From: Sporosarcina sp. P33 | Lineage (GTDB): Bacteria > Bacillota > Bacilli > Bacillales_A > Planococcaceae | Assembly: GCF_002077155.1 (NCBI RefSeq) | Contig: NZ_CP015027.1 | Span: forward strand, 3,078,501 to 3,142,500 | Direction: 5' to 3' | DNA length: 64,000 bases | Part shown: piece after piece, positions 12,656 to 56,116 of the stretch | Layout of the letters: every line of letters begins with the position of its first letter | How positions within the stretch are numbered: position 1 is the stretch's first letter | The notes under the pieces: model-generated | Told to the model about the DNA's origin: nothing | The model's input: only the letters and a program-made list of their open reading frames with translations | Databases searched by the model: none | Position numbers and translations under genes: made by a program

Positions 12656-12678
12656 AGGTTCATAATTAAATATTGATT

Positions 12679-12806
12679 CATCTTCGGGGCAGGGTGTGAT
12701 TCCCGACCGGCGGAAATGAAATAGTTTTCTATTTTTAGCCCGCGAGCTTAACAGCTGATTCTGGTGAGATTCCGGAGCCGACAGTATAGTCTGGATGGGA
12801 GAAGGT
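12679..12806 (+). promoter_or_regulatory. FMN riboswitch (RFN element)
   Basis: The leader contains the conserved FMN aptamer blocks in order: TCTTCGGGGCAGGG, GTGATTCCCGACCGGCGG, AGCCCGCGAGC, GGTGAGATTCCGGAGCCGAC, AGTCTGGATGGGAGAAGG. A terminator hairpin at 12904-12936 sits about 100 bases downstream and about 65 bases before ribU. By family knowledge, FMN binding should favour the terminator and lower riboflavin uptake. Confidence 0.96.
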
Positions 12807-12903
12807 GAAGGTGCAGCCATCTTTTTGTGTACGCAAAAGTGGTGCTTGATTTCTGACGGATAATGATCTATATATTATCTGTTATTAAAAGCGCATTTTA
12901 CTC

Positions 12904-51630: not shown

Positions 51631-52814
51631 CGATTTCATTCAGTACAGCGGCCAGCCGGCAAGTGATCCGGGAATTGCAGGCTGCAGGCTATGAAGCATA
51701 CTTTGTTGGCGGAGCAGTCCGTGATGCGTTGCTCGGAAAACAGCCGCTGGATATTGATATTACGACTTCTGCCACACCGCAGCAAGTCAAAGCCGTATTC
51801 AGCCGCACGGTCGATATCGGAATTGCTCACGGCACCATTTTAGTGCTGATGCAAGGCGAAGCGGTTGAAGTGACGACGTTTCGTACAGAAAGTACATACA
51901 GTGATTTGCGCAGGCCTGATGAAGTTGTTTATGTCACATCCTTGGAAGAGGATTTACAGCGGCGGGATTTTACCATCAATGCATTTGCTATGACGGTGGA
52001 CGGCCGGCTGATCGATTTATTCGGCGGACAGGATGATCTGAAACAACGGATTATTCGCTCAGTGGGTGATCCTGAAGAACGTTTTGGCGAGGATGCATTG
52101 CGCATTTTTCGGGCACTGCGATTTTCTTCCGTTCTGGATTTTGATATTGAAGCAAAAACGTTGGACGCAATGAAAAAGCTTGCCCCTTCACTCCGCCATA
52201 TTACCATCGAGCGAGTTAAAGCGGAATTGGATAAGCTGTTTCAAGGGGAAAATCCATCCCGTGCATTTCATTACAGCCGAGAAATCGGTTTGCCGCAGCT
52301 GTTTCCCGAGTTTCTGTCAGCGTTTAATTCACTTGACGCCTGCACGCCATTTCTCCACGCGCGTCATGGCTATGCGGCAATGCTTGCGCTGACGGATGCA
52401 ACTGCCGCGGAACTGTCGAGGTATTTTAAATTATCCAATGAAGAAAAACGATTTTTAACACAATGTGAAGAAGCGCGTGCGATCCGTTCACAGCGCAAAT
52501 TTGATTCTTGGGATTACTATTCGTTTCCGGCAGACGTATTGGAAACGGCAGAAAAAATTACACATTCGAATCATGAAAGCGGCGGATTGTCCAGGCAGCA
52601 GATAGTGCAGCAAAAAGAATGCCTGCCCATTCAGCAGCGCGCAGATCTGGCTTTCACCGGAAATGACTTATTAACATGGTCAGGAAAAAAGGGCGGAAAA
52701 TGGACGAGTGAATGGATTGAGAAAATTGAGCGTGCGGTTGTCCATGGACGAATTGAAAATGACGCACAGGCGATAAAGGAATGGTTTATAGATGAAATCA
52801 CCCGTGAAAAGTGA
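51627..52814 (+). CDS. cca: CCA-adding tRNA nucleotidyltransferase
   Basis: A 395-residue class II enzyme that builds or repairs the tRNA 3' CCA end. Catalytic head motif GGAVRDALLG with DIDI, followed by RRDFTINAFAM and GEDALRIFRALRF. Its stop lies 23 bases inside the birA frame. Confidence 0.96.
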   Translation: MTISFSTAASRQVIRELQAAGYEAYFVGGAVRDALLGKQPLDIDITTSATPQQVKAVFSRTVDIGIAHGTILVLMQGEAVEVTTFRTESTYSDLRRPDEVVYVTSLEEDLQRRDFTINAFAMTVDGRLIDLFGGQDDLKQRIIRSVGDPEERFGEDALRIFRALRFSSVLDFDIEAKTLDAMKKLAPSLRHITIERVKAELDKLFQGENPSRAFHYSREIGLPQLFPEFLSAFNSLDACTPFLHARHGYAAMLALTDATAAELSRYFKLSNEEKRFLTQCEEARAIRSQRKFDSWDYYSFPADVLETAEKITHSNHESGGLSRQQIVQQKECLPIQQRADLAFTGNDLLTWSGKKGGKWTSEWIEKIERAVVHGRIENDAQAIKEWFIDEITREK

Positions 52815-53775
52815 ATTACTGAAACGATTGTTTGCAGCGCAGGGCGAGCCCGTATCCGGACAGGATATTGCGGATGAATTCGGCCTGTCCCGTACGGCGA
52901 TTTGGAAGTATATCAAAGAGCTGGAAGAAGAGGGATATGAAATCGGTTCACAGCGTAAAAAAGGTTATTATTTAATAGAAGCGCCAGATCTTGTGAACCA
53001 AGGGAACATAACGGAGTATTTAACGACTGAACGATACGGGCGTGCCGTCAAGTATTTTACGACAGTTCCGACCACGCAGACGATTGCGCATGAAGAAGCG
53101 CAAAACGGTGCGGCAGACGGCACGTTAATTATTTCGGAGGAACAGACGGCAGGAAAAGGCCGCTTGGCAAGACCGTGGAAATCAAAGGCGAATCGCGGAG
53201 TTTGGATGAGTCTGATTATTCGTCCGGATCTGCCTCCGCAGCGTGCTCCACAGCTGACATTGGTGGCGGCTGTTTCGATTGTGCGCGCGATAGAAGAAGT
53301 GGCAAATATTCAGCCGGTCATCAAATGGCCGAATGATATATTAATTAACGGCAAAAAAGTCACTGGCATCCTGACAGAACTGCAGGCGGACCCTGACCGT
53401 GTGAAAGCGGTCATTCTCGGCATGGGTATCAATGCCAATCAGGAACCCTCTGATTTCCCGGAAGAATTACAGACAATCGCCACTTCTTTGCGAATTGAAA
53501 AAGGCGAAACGATAGACCGTGCGCAGCTGGTTGCCTCCATTCTGAAGTATCTTGAACAGTATACGGATCTTTATGTCGAAAAAGGTTTTGCCCCCATTAA
53601 AATTCTTTGGGAAAGTTACGCAGCAATTACAGGCAAGAAAATTAAAGCGAGCATGGTCCATGAAACAGTAGAAGGCGTGGCGCTTGGCATTTCCCATGAC
53701 GGCATGCTTGAACTGCAGCTGGAAGACGGCACGGTTCGAGGAATTTATTCTGCAGACATAGAAGTGAAGAATTAA
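52792..53775 (+). CDS. birA: Biotin-protein ligase and biotin repressor BirA
   Basis: A 327-residue bifunctional protein: N-terminal winged helix (about 5-65; GLSRTAIWKYIKELEEEGY), central ligase domain (about 80-265) and small C-terminal domain. It biotinylates acyl-CoA carboxylases and represses biotin genes. The biotinyl-AMP loop reads AGKGRLARPW, with Lys where B. subtilis has Arg. ATG at 52792, ten bases after AAGGAA, makes a 23-base overlap with cca; GTG at 52804 is an alternative. Confidence 0.95.
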   Translation: MKSPVKSELLKRLFAAQGEPVSGQDIADEFGLSRTAIWKYIKELEEEGYEIGSQRKKGYYLIEAPDLVNQGNITEYLTTERYGRAVKYFTTVPTTQTIAHEEAQNGAADGTLIISEEQTAGKGRLARPWKSKANRGVWMSLIIRPDLPPQRAPQLTLVAAVSIVRAIEEVANIQPVIKWPNDILINGKKVTGILTELQADPDRVKAVILGMGINANQEPSDFPEELQTIATSLRIEKGETIDRAQLVASILKYLEQYTDLYVEKGFAPIKILWESYAAITGKKIKASMVHETVEGVALGISHDGMLELQLEDGTVRGIYSADIEVKN

Positions 53776-53778
53776 AAC

Positions 53779-53807
53779 TATACAGAATCTTACCGTTTTG
53801 ATATAGT
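53779..53807 (+). promoter_or_regulatory. Candidate promoter of the panBCD leader
   Basis: TATACA (53779-53784), 17 bases, TATAGT (53802-53807). It would give a leader of about 210 bases. Confidence 0.5.
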
Positions 53808-53849
53808 ATACAACATAGGGCGGTATCGATTGCAGAGCTGCACCTGATT

Positions 53850-53938
53850 GGCAAATGAATGAGATTAGAAATCTGCCTTGATCTTTATAGACAGGGACGG
53901 AGGAAGCAGAACCCTACGCTTACGCAACCCTTCTGTCC
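53850..53938 (+). ncRNA. Structured 5' leader RNA of panBCD (probable pan motif)
   Basis: GGACGGAGG (53895-53903) pairs continuously with CTTCTGTCC (53930-53938), enclosing a 26-base segment. The 3' strand of this stem is also the 5' part of a terminator at 53926-53966, so the folds exclude each other. A conserved RNA called the pan motif is known upstream of panB/panCD in Firmicutes; identity is inferred from location and structure and was not tested against its covariance model. The upstream boundary is uncertain. Confidence 0.55.
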
Positions 53939-53966
53939 AATTTTGGATCAGCAGGGTTTTATTTTT
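53926..53966 (+). terminator. Attenuator terminator in the panBCD leader
   Basis: AACCCT, CTG and TCCAA pair in register with TTGGA, CAG and AGGGTT, leaving single-base bulges. It is followed by TTATTTTT and a later T run. Confidence 0.8.
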
Positions 53967-54022
53967 GGTTTTTTTGCCCGCTACACGCCTGCTGAAATCA
54001 GACGTAAAGGAGAAGATTGACA

Positions 54023-54862
54023 GTGAAATCCACAACAGATTTTTCAAAAATGAAAGCGAATGGTGAGAAAATCAGTATGCTGACTGCGTATGATTATCCG
54101 ACAGCGCAAATTGCAGAACAAGCGGAGATCGATGTGCTTCTAGTCGGAGATTCCCTTGGCATGGTGGTATTGGGTTATGATTCGACAGCACTCGTTACAC
54201 TGGACGAAATGATTCACCATGGAAAAGCGGTCAGACGCGGTGCGAAAGATACTTTCGTCATTGTGGATATGCCTTTTGGGACGTATCACGGCTCTGATGA
54301 TGCGACACTGCAGCAAGCGCTTCGTTTATTCCAGGAAACATCTGCGAATGCGCTGAAAGTAGAGGGCGGCGGAAAAGTCATCGACAAAATCAAACTGCTG
54401 ACATCAGCCGGTATGCCGGTCTGTGCACATTTAGGATTACTTCCCCAGTCTGCCGGAGTGACAGGCGGATATAAAGTGCAAGGCAAAACAGCGGCTGCAG
54501 CAAAACAGCTGATTGAAGATGCTATGGCTTGTGAAGCAGCAGGCGCTTTCATGATTGTTCTCGAGTGTATTCCATTCCAGCTGGCGCAAGAAGTCGCACG
54601 CGCTGTATCTATTCCGATTATTGGAATCGGCGCAGGTGCAGAAACGGACGGACAAGTGCTCGTGTTCCATGACATGGTGCGCTACGGCAATCACAAACTG
54701 CCGAAATTCGTCGAAAGCTATGCGGAAGTCGGAAAAGATATTGAAGGTGCGATGAGATTATATAACAGTGCAGTAAAGAATGGTTCTTTCCCTTCTGAAA
54801 GCCATCGCTTTACGATGAAAGAAGAAGAACTGGATGCGCTGTATGGGGGAAAAACACTATGA
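54023..54862 (+). CDS. panB: 3-methyl-2-oxobutanoate hydroxymethyltransferase
   Basis: A 279-residue enzyme that makes ketopantoate, the first step of pantothenate synthesis. [23 protein letters not shown], and [14 protein letters not shown] blocks and the general base Glu in IVLECIP are visible. GTG at 54023 has AAAGGAG about ten bases upstream; TTG at 54017 is only four bases from it. Stop overlaps panC by four bases. Expression is likely set by the leader attenuator. Confidence 0.96.
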
Positions 54863-55740
54863 ATGCCAGTGCAACGATGCAAATTGTCCGGTCAATTGCT
54901 GAATTGAAAAACATCCTCAATCCGAGAAAACGTGAAGGCCGCACGGTAGGTTTTGTGCCGACGATGGGTTTCCTTCACGAAGGACATCTCGAATTGGTGA
55001 AGCAGGCAAGAAGAGATCATGACATTGTTGTCATGAGCATTTTCGTTAATCCCGCTCAGTTTGGTCCGGGGGAAGATTATGAAGCGTATCCGCGCGACGA
55101 ACAGCGCGACGCTGAACTTGCTGCCGCAGCAGGTGTTGACTATTTATTCATTCCATCAGTCACGGAGATGTATCCGCGTAAAAGCGGAATCAGCATTTTG
55201 CCGGGCGAGCAGGCGTCGCGTTTATGCGGGGCTTCAAGGCCGGGGCACTTCGACGGCGTGCTGAAAGTTCTCTTGAAGTTATTTAATATTGTCGACCCTG
55301 ATGAGTCTTATTTTGGAATGAAGGATGCACAGCAGCTCGCAATTATTGAAACTTTTGTTCGGGATTTCAATTTGCGAACATCGATTGCGCGGGTTCCGAC
55401 TGTGCGTGAAGAAGACGGCTTGGCGAAAAGTTCGCGCAATGTCCGCTTGCTTGAACATGAACGGAAGGAAGCAAGTGCAATCTACCGTGCTCTCGGCATA
55501 GGCAAACGCAGCTATTATGAAGGCGTGCCATTGACAGAAGTAGAGAAAATTGTAAGAAGAACGATTGAAGAAGAAACTTCGGGTACGATTGATTATGTCC
55601 ATGTTCTGGCTTACCCTTCATTAGATGAAAACATTAGTGAAGCCGAAGAAGTCATCCTTGCCGCCGCGGTACAGTTTACTTCAGCCAGACTGATAGATAA
55701 TATAATTATGTCAACTATAAAGGATGAGAAAAATGTTTAG
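54859..55740 (+). CDS. panC: Pantothenate synthetase
   Basis: A 293-residue ATP-dependent ligase of pantoate and beta-alanine. [15 protein letters not shown] (with the HxGH nucleotide motif), [18 protein letters not shown] and [12 protein letters not shown] are hallmarks. An in-frame ATG at 54877 is an alternative start. It overlaps panD by eight bases. Confidence 0.96.
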
Positions 55741-56116
55741 AATGATGATGAATGGAAAGTTACATCGCGCAACAGTCACTGAAGCCAATCTCAATTACGT
55801 GGGCAGCATTACAATCGATGGAGCACTATTGGAAGCTGCGGGGATGCTGCCGAATGAGAAAGTACAAATCGTCAACAACAATAACGGTGCGCGTTTTGAG
55901 ACGTATATTATTGAAGGAGAACGAAACAGCGGCGTAATCTGTGTCAACGGAGCTGCCGCACGCCTTGTGCAGCCTGGCGACATTGTCATTATTCTGTCCT
56001 ATGCTTACGTATCGGACGAGGAAGCACGCACGCATCAGCCGACAGTTCTGATTATGGATGAACAGAACCGCGTAAAAGAAGTCATTACAGAAAAACCAGG
56101 TGTCGCAATTTACTAA
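55733..56116 (+). CDS. panD: Aspartate 1-decarboxylase
   Basis: A 127-residue pyruvoyl enzyme that supplies beta-alanine. The self-cleavage pair is Gly24-Ser25 in NYVGSITID, exactly at the family position with ATG at 55733, which lies seven bases after AAGGA. Tyr58-region and [12 protein letters not shown] blocks are conserved. Last gene of panBCD. Confidence 0.97.

Follow-up and report, generated by a model that had tools for sequence, protein, structure and literature searches.

What controls the panBCD operon of Sporosarcina sp. P33, and what might the RNA leader in front of it sense? In the window (the whole 64,000-nucleotide stretch of DNA analysed here) the gene order is birA (52792-53775), a leader, panB, panC and panD. 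The three pan genes lie on the forward strand: panB at 54023-54862 (TIGR00222, 342.6 bits; open frame from 54017, with a GTG start at 54023 placed by comparison with homologues), panC at 54859-55740 (TIGR00018, 319.2 bits) and panD at 55724-56116 (TIGR00223, 191.2 bits; an open frame that may begin a few codons ahead of the real start). PanB of the window is 94% identical both to that of S. ureae DSM 2281 and to that of an S. ureae MAG. A preliminary description had placed in the leader, at 53850-53966, a pan motif with an explicit attenuator made of two mutually exclusive stems. The motif itself has been known since 2010, when it was described before pan operons as a stem with a pair of bulged A residues that usually occurs in tandem (Weinberg et al, 2010, PMC2864571), and RNA-seq listings place it before panB in Bacillus methanolicus (PMC4342826) and Paenibacillus riograndensis (PMC5670726). 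In their accessible text these descriptions give no expression platform and no PanT-like or coaX targets (PMC2864571, PMC4342826, PMC5670726), and the supplementary alignments of the 2010 study are said to annotate predicted terminators (PMC2864571); what we add here are PanT-like targets beyond panBCD.

The leader matches the pan model RF01749 at 53817-53904, over the full model length (1-92) and with 62.6 bits against a gathering cut-off of 36.2; at E <= 0.001 it is the sole match in the whole 3.24 Mb genome. The match comprises two tandem hairpins on the forward strand, each with two conserved bulged adenines: hairpin 1 at 53817-53845 (A53825 and A53842) and hairpin 2 at 53873-53900 (A53881 and A53897), both positioned by the RF01749 alignment and supported by covariation. 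With panB, panC and panD directly 3' of it, the motif agrees with the published one in sequence, in its tandem bulged-A hairpins and in its place before panB-panC-panD, so that a pan leader of panBCD is confirmed; the range first given for it holds both attenuator stems and omits hairpin 1 and the promoter. Among 60 leaders (one per genus within Planococcaceae, one per family outside), compensatory change was found in 17 of the 20 predicted pan hairpin pairs.

A pan match is present in 250/261 Planococcaceae genomes and in 99/249 genomes drawn from the phylum Bacillota. Genus g7 has panB without a pan match in five of eight genomes (L280-L284); in the other six Planococcaceae genomes without pan a panB match is absent too, one of these (G214) being only 75% complete. 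The sequence upstream of panB in L282 and L284 resembles the end of birA. Genomes of genus g13 (G079-G124) carry two pan matches each, examples lying before panB (L107) and before panC-panD (L093, L104, L106). For comparison we used 175 sites from 48 families in all, mostly the better-scoring among the matches listed: 87 Planococcaceae leaders from 13 genera (41 of them from the window's own genus) and 88 from other Bacillota, the 17 weakest phylum sites among the matches listed being left out and one of two G103 sites dropped.

Transcription would start at about 53813-53816, just 5' of the pan motif, as judged from an extended -10 element (TGaTATAGT, 53799-53807, forward strand; the -10 box itself at 53802-53807) identified by consensus scan and by its conserved position in relatives. 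The scan of the window region gave three sites against a shuffle mean of 2.1, which is no excess. Across relatives, a -10 box lies 4-16 nt 5' of pan in 81/87 Planococcaceae leaders, against 16/147 background stretches, and the best box carries the TG extension in 79/87; the corresponding figures for leaders outside the family are 64/88 against 13/261. A start downstream of the leader, which the preliminary description had named as grounds for abandoning its proposal, is not what these sequences indicate.

The nine-pair stem proposed as antiterminator joins 53895-53903 (ggacggagg) with 53930-53938 (cttctgtcc), two of the nine pairs being G-U; folding of 53895-53938 gives -12.7 kcal/mol. Its 3' arm lies within the 5' arm of an intrinsic terminator hairpin (53926-53958, forward strand; -15.5 kcal/mol when folded with two tract bases; conserved in relatives), which is followed by a T-rich tract read from the sequence at 53957-53976. 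Both stems are thus located as first described, and because they have bases in common they are mutually exclusive, as had been claimed. That two-stem logic had missed a third element: the antiterminator 5' arm consists of 53895-53900, which belong to the 3' arm of pan hairpin 2 (53889-53900), and of 53901-53903 from the pan tail, so that the conserved pan structure excludes the antiterminator. Three elements are therefore linked, pan hairpin 2 competing with the antiterminator and the antiterminator with the terminator, and the four unpaired 3' bases of the Rfam pan model probably belong to the antiterminator. The strand shared between the aptamer side and the antiterminator in terminator/antiterminator riboswitch expression platforms is laid out in the same way.

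Within the window alone these features do not stand out: 176/2000 shuffles reach a nine-pair run, 53817-53975 folds with an unexceptional energy (z -1.71), and a simple terminator scan of 52700-54200 gave no terminator. It is the comparison of leaders that supports an explicit attenuator with the upstream stem as antiterminator. A terminator-like hairpin lies within 230 nt of pan in 169/175 leaders, and one of -12 kcal/mol or better in 155/175, against 66/350 dinucleotide shuffles and 17/136 control stretches taken 500-735 nt further downstream (a threshold of -7 kcal/mol was too loose, passing 190/350 shuffles and 44/136 downstream stretches). The next 198 nt were searched for the sequence best complementary to the 3' end of pan; it fell on the terminator 5' arm in 80/87 Planococcaceae leaders and beat shuffled downstream sequence at 0.05 in 75/87. 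Outside the family it fell on this arm in 42/88 leaders and elsewhere in 46/88, and beat shuffled sequence in only 20/88; the antiterminator platform is therefore not universal.

The two arms of the Planococcaceae terminator are very unequally conserved. Mean pairwise identity is 0.975 for the 5' core and 0.664 for the 3' arm in 68/87 leaders, a set chosen by a 5' core pattern that favours high core identity and drops the remaining 19; the core is exactly CCCTTCTGTC in 60 of these 68, and with another core pattern it is present in 83/87. A terminator alone gives no reason for this asymmetry, which therefore points to a second partner for the 5' arm. When partners were swapped between leaders of 45 Bacillota families outside Planococcaceae (one leader each), the pan arm scored 15.07 with its own terminator 5' arm and 13.42 (sd 0.34) with swapped arms, and 0/2000 swaps reached the former value. 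The terminator 3' arm showed a slight excess of own over swapped in the leaders outside Planococcaceae (11.09 vs 10.54, 30/2000). Individual leaders illustrate the pan-to-terminator match: GACAGAGGG is paired by CCCTTCTGTC in a Heyndrickxia leader (L191), CGGAAGG stands against CCTTCCG in L123, and AGACAGGTAA against TTGCCTGTCT in L262. Within Planococcaceae the swap test was not significant (one leader per genus, n = 12; 392/2000 reach the observed score), since the sequences there hardly vary. Duplexes with the terminator arm surpassed those with its dinucleotide shuffles at p <= 0.05 in only 39/169 leaders (23/86, 16/83), a weakness that follows from arms of low complexity, rich in purines or in pyrimidines.

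At the level of individual pairs, 57 leaders gave 331 paired antiterminator cells with their own partners against 281 when swapped (0/500), 42 against 32 cells changed on both sides (29/500), and 23 against 21.7 pair types (197/500). Compensatory change, which the preliminary description had proposed as a check, is thus present in the pan hairpins, and pair-type covariation in the antiterminator itself is modest.

Could the hairpin simply end the birA transcript coming from upstream, as an ordinary terminator under no regulation, with its pairing to the pan arm due to chance? The birA frame ends at 53775, and the pairing is not above chance in the single sequence, as such an origin would have it. 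We nevertheless regard it as very improbable, given the conserved promoter-like box between birA and pan, a terminator 5' arm conserved far beyond the 3' arm and coevolving with the pan arm, and the recurrence of the layout before first genes other than panB.

The reading we favour, with a probability of about 0.77, is that the pan motif controls a transcription attenuator ahead of panBCD. The anatomy of the leader, the overlap of its strands and their coevolution come directly from the computation; on sequence evidence the terminator 5' arm has an alternative upstream partner that is conserved in relatives. The leader itself is a genuine and unexceptional pan RNA, and its attenuator is clear at the level of sequence. 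Transcription beginning just 5' of the motif would meet one of two fates. A signal that stabilises both pan hairpins would hold the 3' arm of hairpin 2, allow the terminator to form and switch panBCD off; with no signal, the pan strand would pair with the emerging terminator 5' arm, and the resulting antiterminator would permit read-through into panBCD. The bound state would then be the folded state and the off state. The earlier rule of "fold on, no fold off" accordingly stands for the antiterminator stem and is reversed for the pan RNA, whose folding should give the off state.

Predicted energies place a constraint on timing. When the antiterminator 3' arm is just out (53938), the antiterminator state (-28.5 kcal/mol) and the best fold (-29.0) are 0.5 kcal/mol apart; with the whole terminator transcribed (53960), the terminator state (-41.5) leads the antiterminator state (-35.3) by 6.2 kcal/mol. 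At equilibrium the default should therefore be off, and antitermination would have to be kinetic. A signal of opposite sign, an inducer that destabilises pan or stabilises the antiterminator, would use the same strands, and sequence alone cannot fix the sign; this we consider improbable, because the genes behind the leader serve the supply, import and activation of pantothenate, and end-product repression is the usual pattern for genes of this kind. For the attenuator with a folded off state, the strands of the on and off forms are defined explicitly, and any candidate signal could be assayed directly by its effect on termination, so that both the sign of the switch and a list of signals are now testable.

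A further helix may follow the terminator. The Planococcaceae pan tail (GAGGAAACC or GAAGAAAAC) matches the strand directly after the T tract (GGTTTTCTC or GTTTTCTTC), and this pairing, P3, is the best-scoring run of eight or more positions in 73/80 leaders (7/87 dropped). Scores were 20.05 for own partners, 18.07 for swapped and 12.2 for shuffled ones (0/2000), and coevolving examples are seen in L015, L022 and L032. P3 would surround the terminator and be incompatible with the antiterminator. Inspection by eye shows a similar pairing in the Bacillaceae leaders L188 and L191; over 46 families outside Planococcaceae P3 was not significant (134/2000), and the window has a degenerate version of it. 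P3 could bear on ribosome access. Sequestering of the Shine-Dalgarno sequence by the post-terminator strand was considered and rejected: it is paired in 55/71 predicted folds, but in 69% with a shuffled strand too. In the window, TCAGCAGG (53948-53955), part of the terminator 3' arm, is perfectly complementary to CCTGCTGA (53988-53995), and the close relative L138 shows a comparable pair; this is possibly a further alternative pairing of the window's subclade.

To ask what the leader responds to, we turned to the genes that lie behind it. More than 700 nt of sequence follows 136 of the leaders; in 127 of these panB, panC or panD begins within about 1.5 kb, a pan gene coming first in 67 and further down in 60, usually after a Rossmann-type gene (DUF2520 in L109, the one scanned). 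The remaining nine leaders precede birA and then an ECF substrate component (L116, L242), an ECF component first (L256, L272, with coaX second in L272), BioY and then an ECF component (L275), or genes of unclear identity (L228, L233, L269 and L218, of which L269 has a Rossmann-type gene first and L218 no frame of 90 aa). The pan match of L228 precedes a long multi-spanning membrane protein, presumably of the oligopeptide-transporter type. In L264, a BASS transporter closest to PanS, and below the PanS cut-off, precedes panC. The ECF proteins of L116, L256, L272 and L275 match PF12822; we label such proteins PanT-like, NCBIfam having given only sub-threshold, folate-family matches to those tried.

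A phylum search with the ECF protein of L275 found 30 loci, with a coaX match in 23/30; the pan motif scores above cut-off in 8/30 and in none of the other 22/30. In 11/249 genomes (G266, G294, G302, G336, G341, G343, G352, G386, G436, G486 and G491) a listed pan site is followed on its own strand, at a distance of up to 3 kb, by a PanT-like gene, and further pan sites occur at PanT-like loci in G303 and G488. The 99 pan-bearing phylum genomes include 94 with a panB match and five without (G294, G386, G433, G486, G491). In four of these five the pan site is upstream of a PanT-like gene, often beside coaX, which encodes pantothenate kinase; in the fifth, G433, it stands before panC and panD. 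Some of the pan matches in these genomes are near or below the cut-off (34.0 bits in G386). Ketopantoate should not be made in cells that lack PanB, so that a precursor is an unlikely signal there. The distribution suggests a signal late in the pathway, pantothenate or a later compound and not ketopantoate or pantoate, which would shorten the list of ligands to test. PanT-like genes also stand beside BioY or birA, and coaX, in L285, L289-L292, L294-L296 and L303; biotin and pantothenate genes are grouped together at these loci, some of them under pan.

The signal is thus probably pantothenate or a compound further along the CoA pathway, sensed by the RNA itself or via a protein. That the same attenuator is worked by a metabolite-sensing, perhaps dimeric, protein bound to the pan RNA we hold to be close to an even chance: the hairpins are short, with two bulged A residues each, and their simple dimeric arrangement was taken by the discoverers as suggesting a dimeric protein-binding motif (Weinberg et al, 2010, PMC2864571). 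Direct binding of pantothenate, of a phosphopantothenate or pantetheine derivative or of CoA by the RNA, turning the operon off, is a more tentative proposal. It would account for the switch-type overlap with the terminator, for apparent targets that span pantothenate synthesis, import and activation, and for the several columns of both hairpins that are invariant or nearly so among the 60 leaders. Set against it are a motif that we judge small for a cofactor aptamer and the statement, in the accessible part of Breaker's 2022 review, that no CoA riboswitch is known (PMC9971707).

The literature bears on this choice as follows. In the discoverers' summary table, the third column is the one that we take to stand for riboswitch. 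The entry for pan reads "Y Y ?" (Weinberg et al, 2010, PMC2864571). No ligand or protein partner for pan was found in the open-licence papers searched (titles and starts of abstracts), which sets pan apart from established riboswitch platforms, and its membership among riboswitches therefore stays putative. The accessible text of a riboswitch review contains neither "pan motif" nor "pan RNA" (PMC7266159), that of a B. subtilis study from 2024 on CoA synthesis lacks "riboswitch", "terminator" and "leader" (PMC11487621), and the main text of a premature-terminator survey, as accessible, lacks panB (PMC2965389). CoA has been named, again in the portions accessible, as a missing riboswitch ligand (PMC9971707, PMC10043782). 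We think it unlikely that pan is a direct-sensing off switch of the CoA pathway (for pantothenate, phosphopantothenate, phosphopantetheine or CoA) in which, in Bacilli, one pan strand has a choice of three partners and so switches both transcription and translation. These partners would be the hairpin to which the strand belongs, the terminator 5' arm and, once transcription has read through, a strand close to the Shine-Dalgarno sequence, the last being degenerate in the window. If true, pan would supply the CoA-pathway riboswitch whose absence has been remarked on. Elsewhere in the window, an FMN riboswitch lies at 12676-12810 (113.6 bits).
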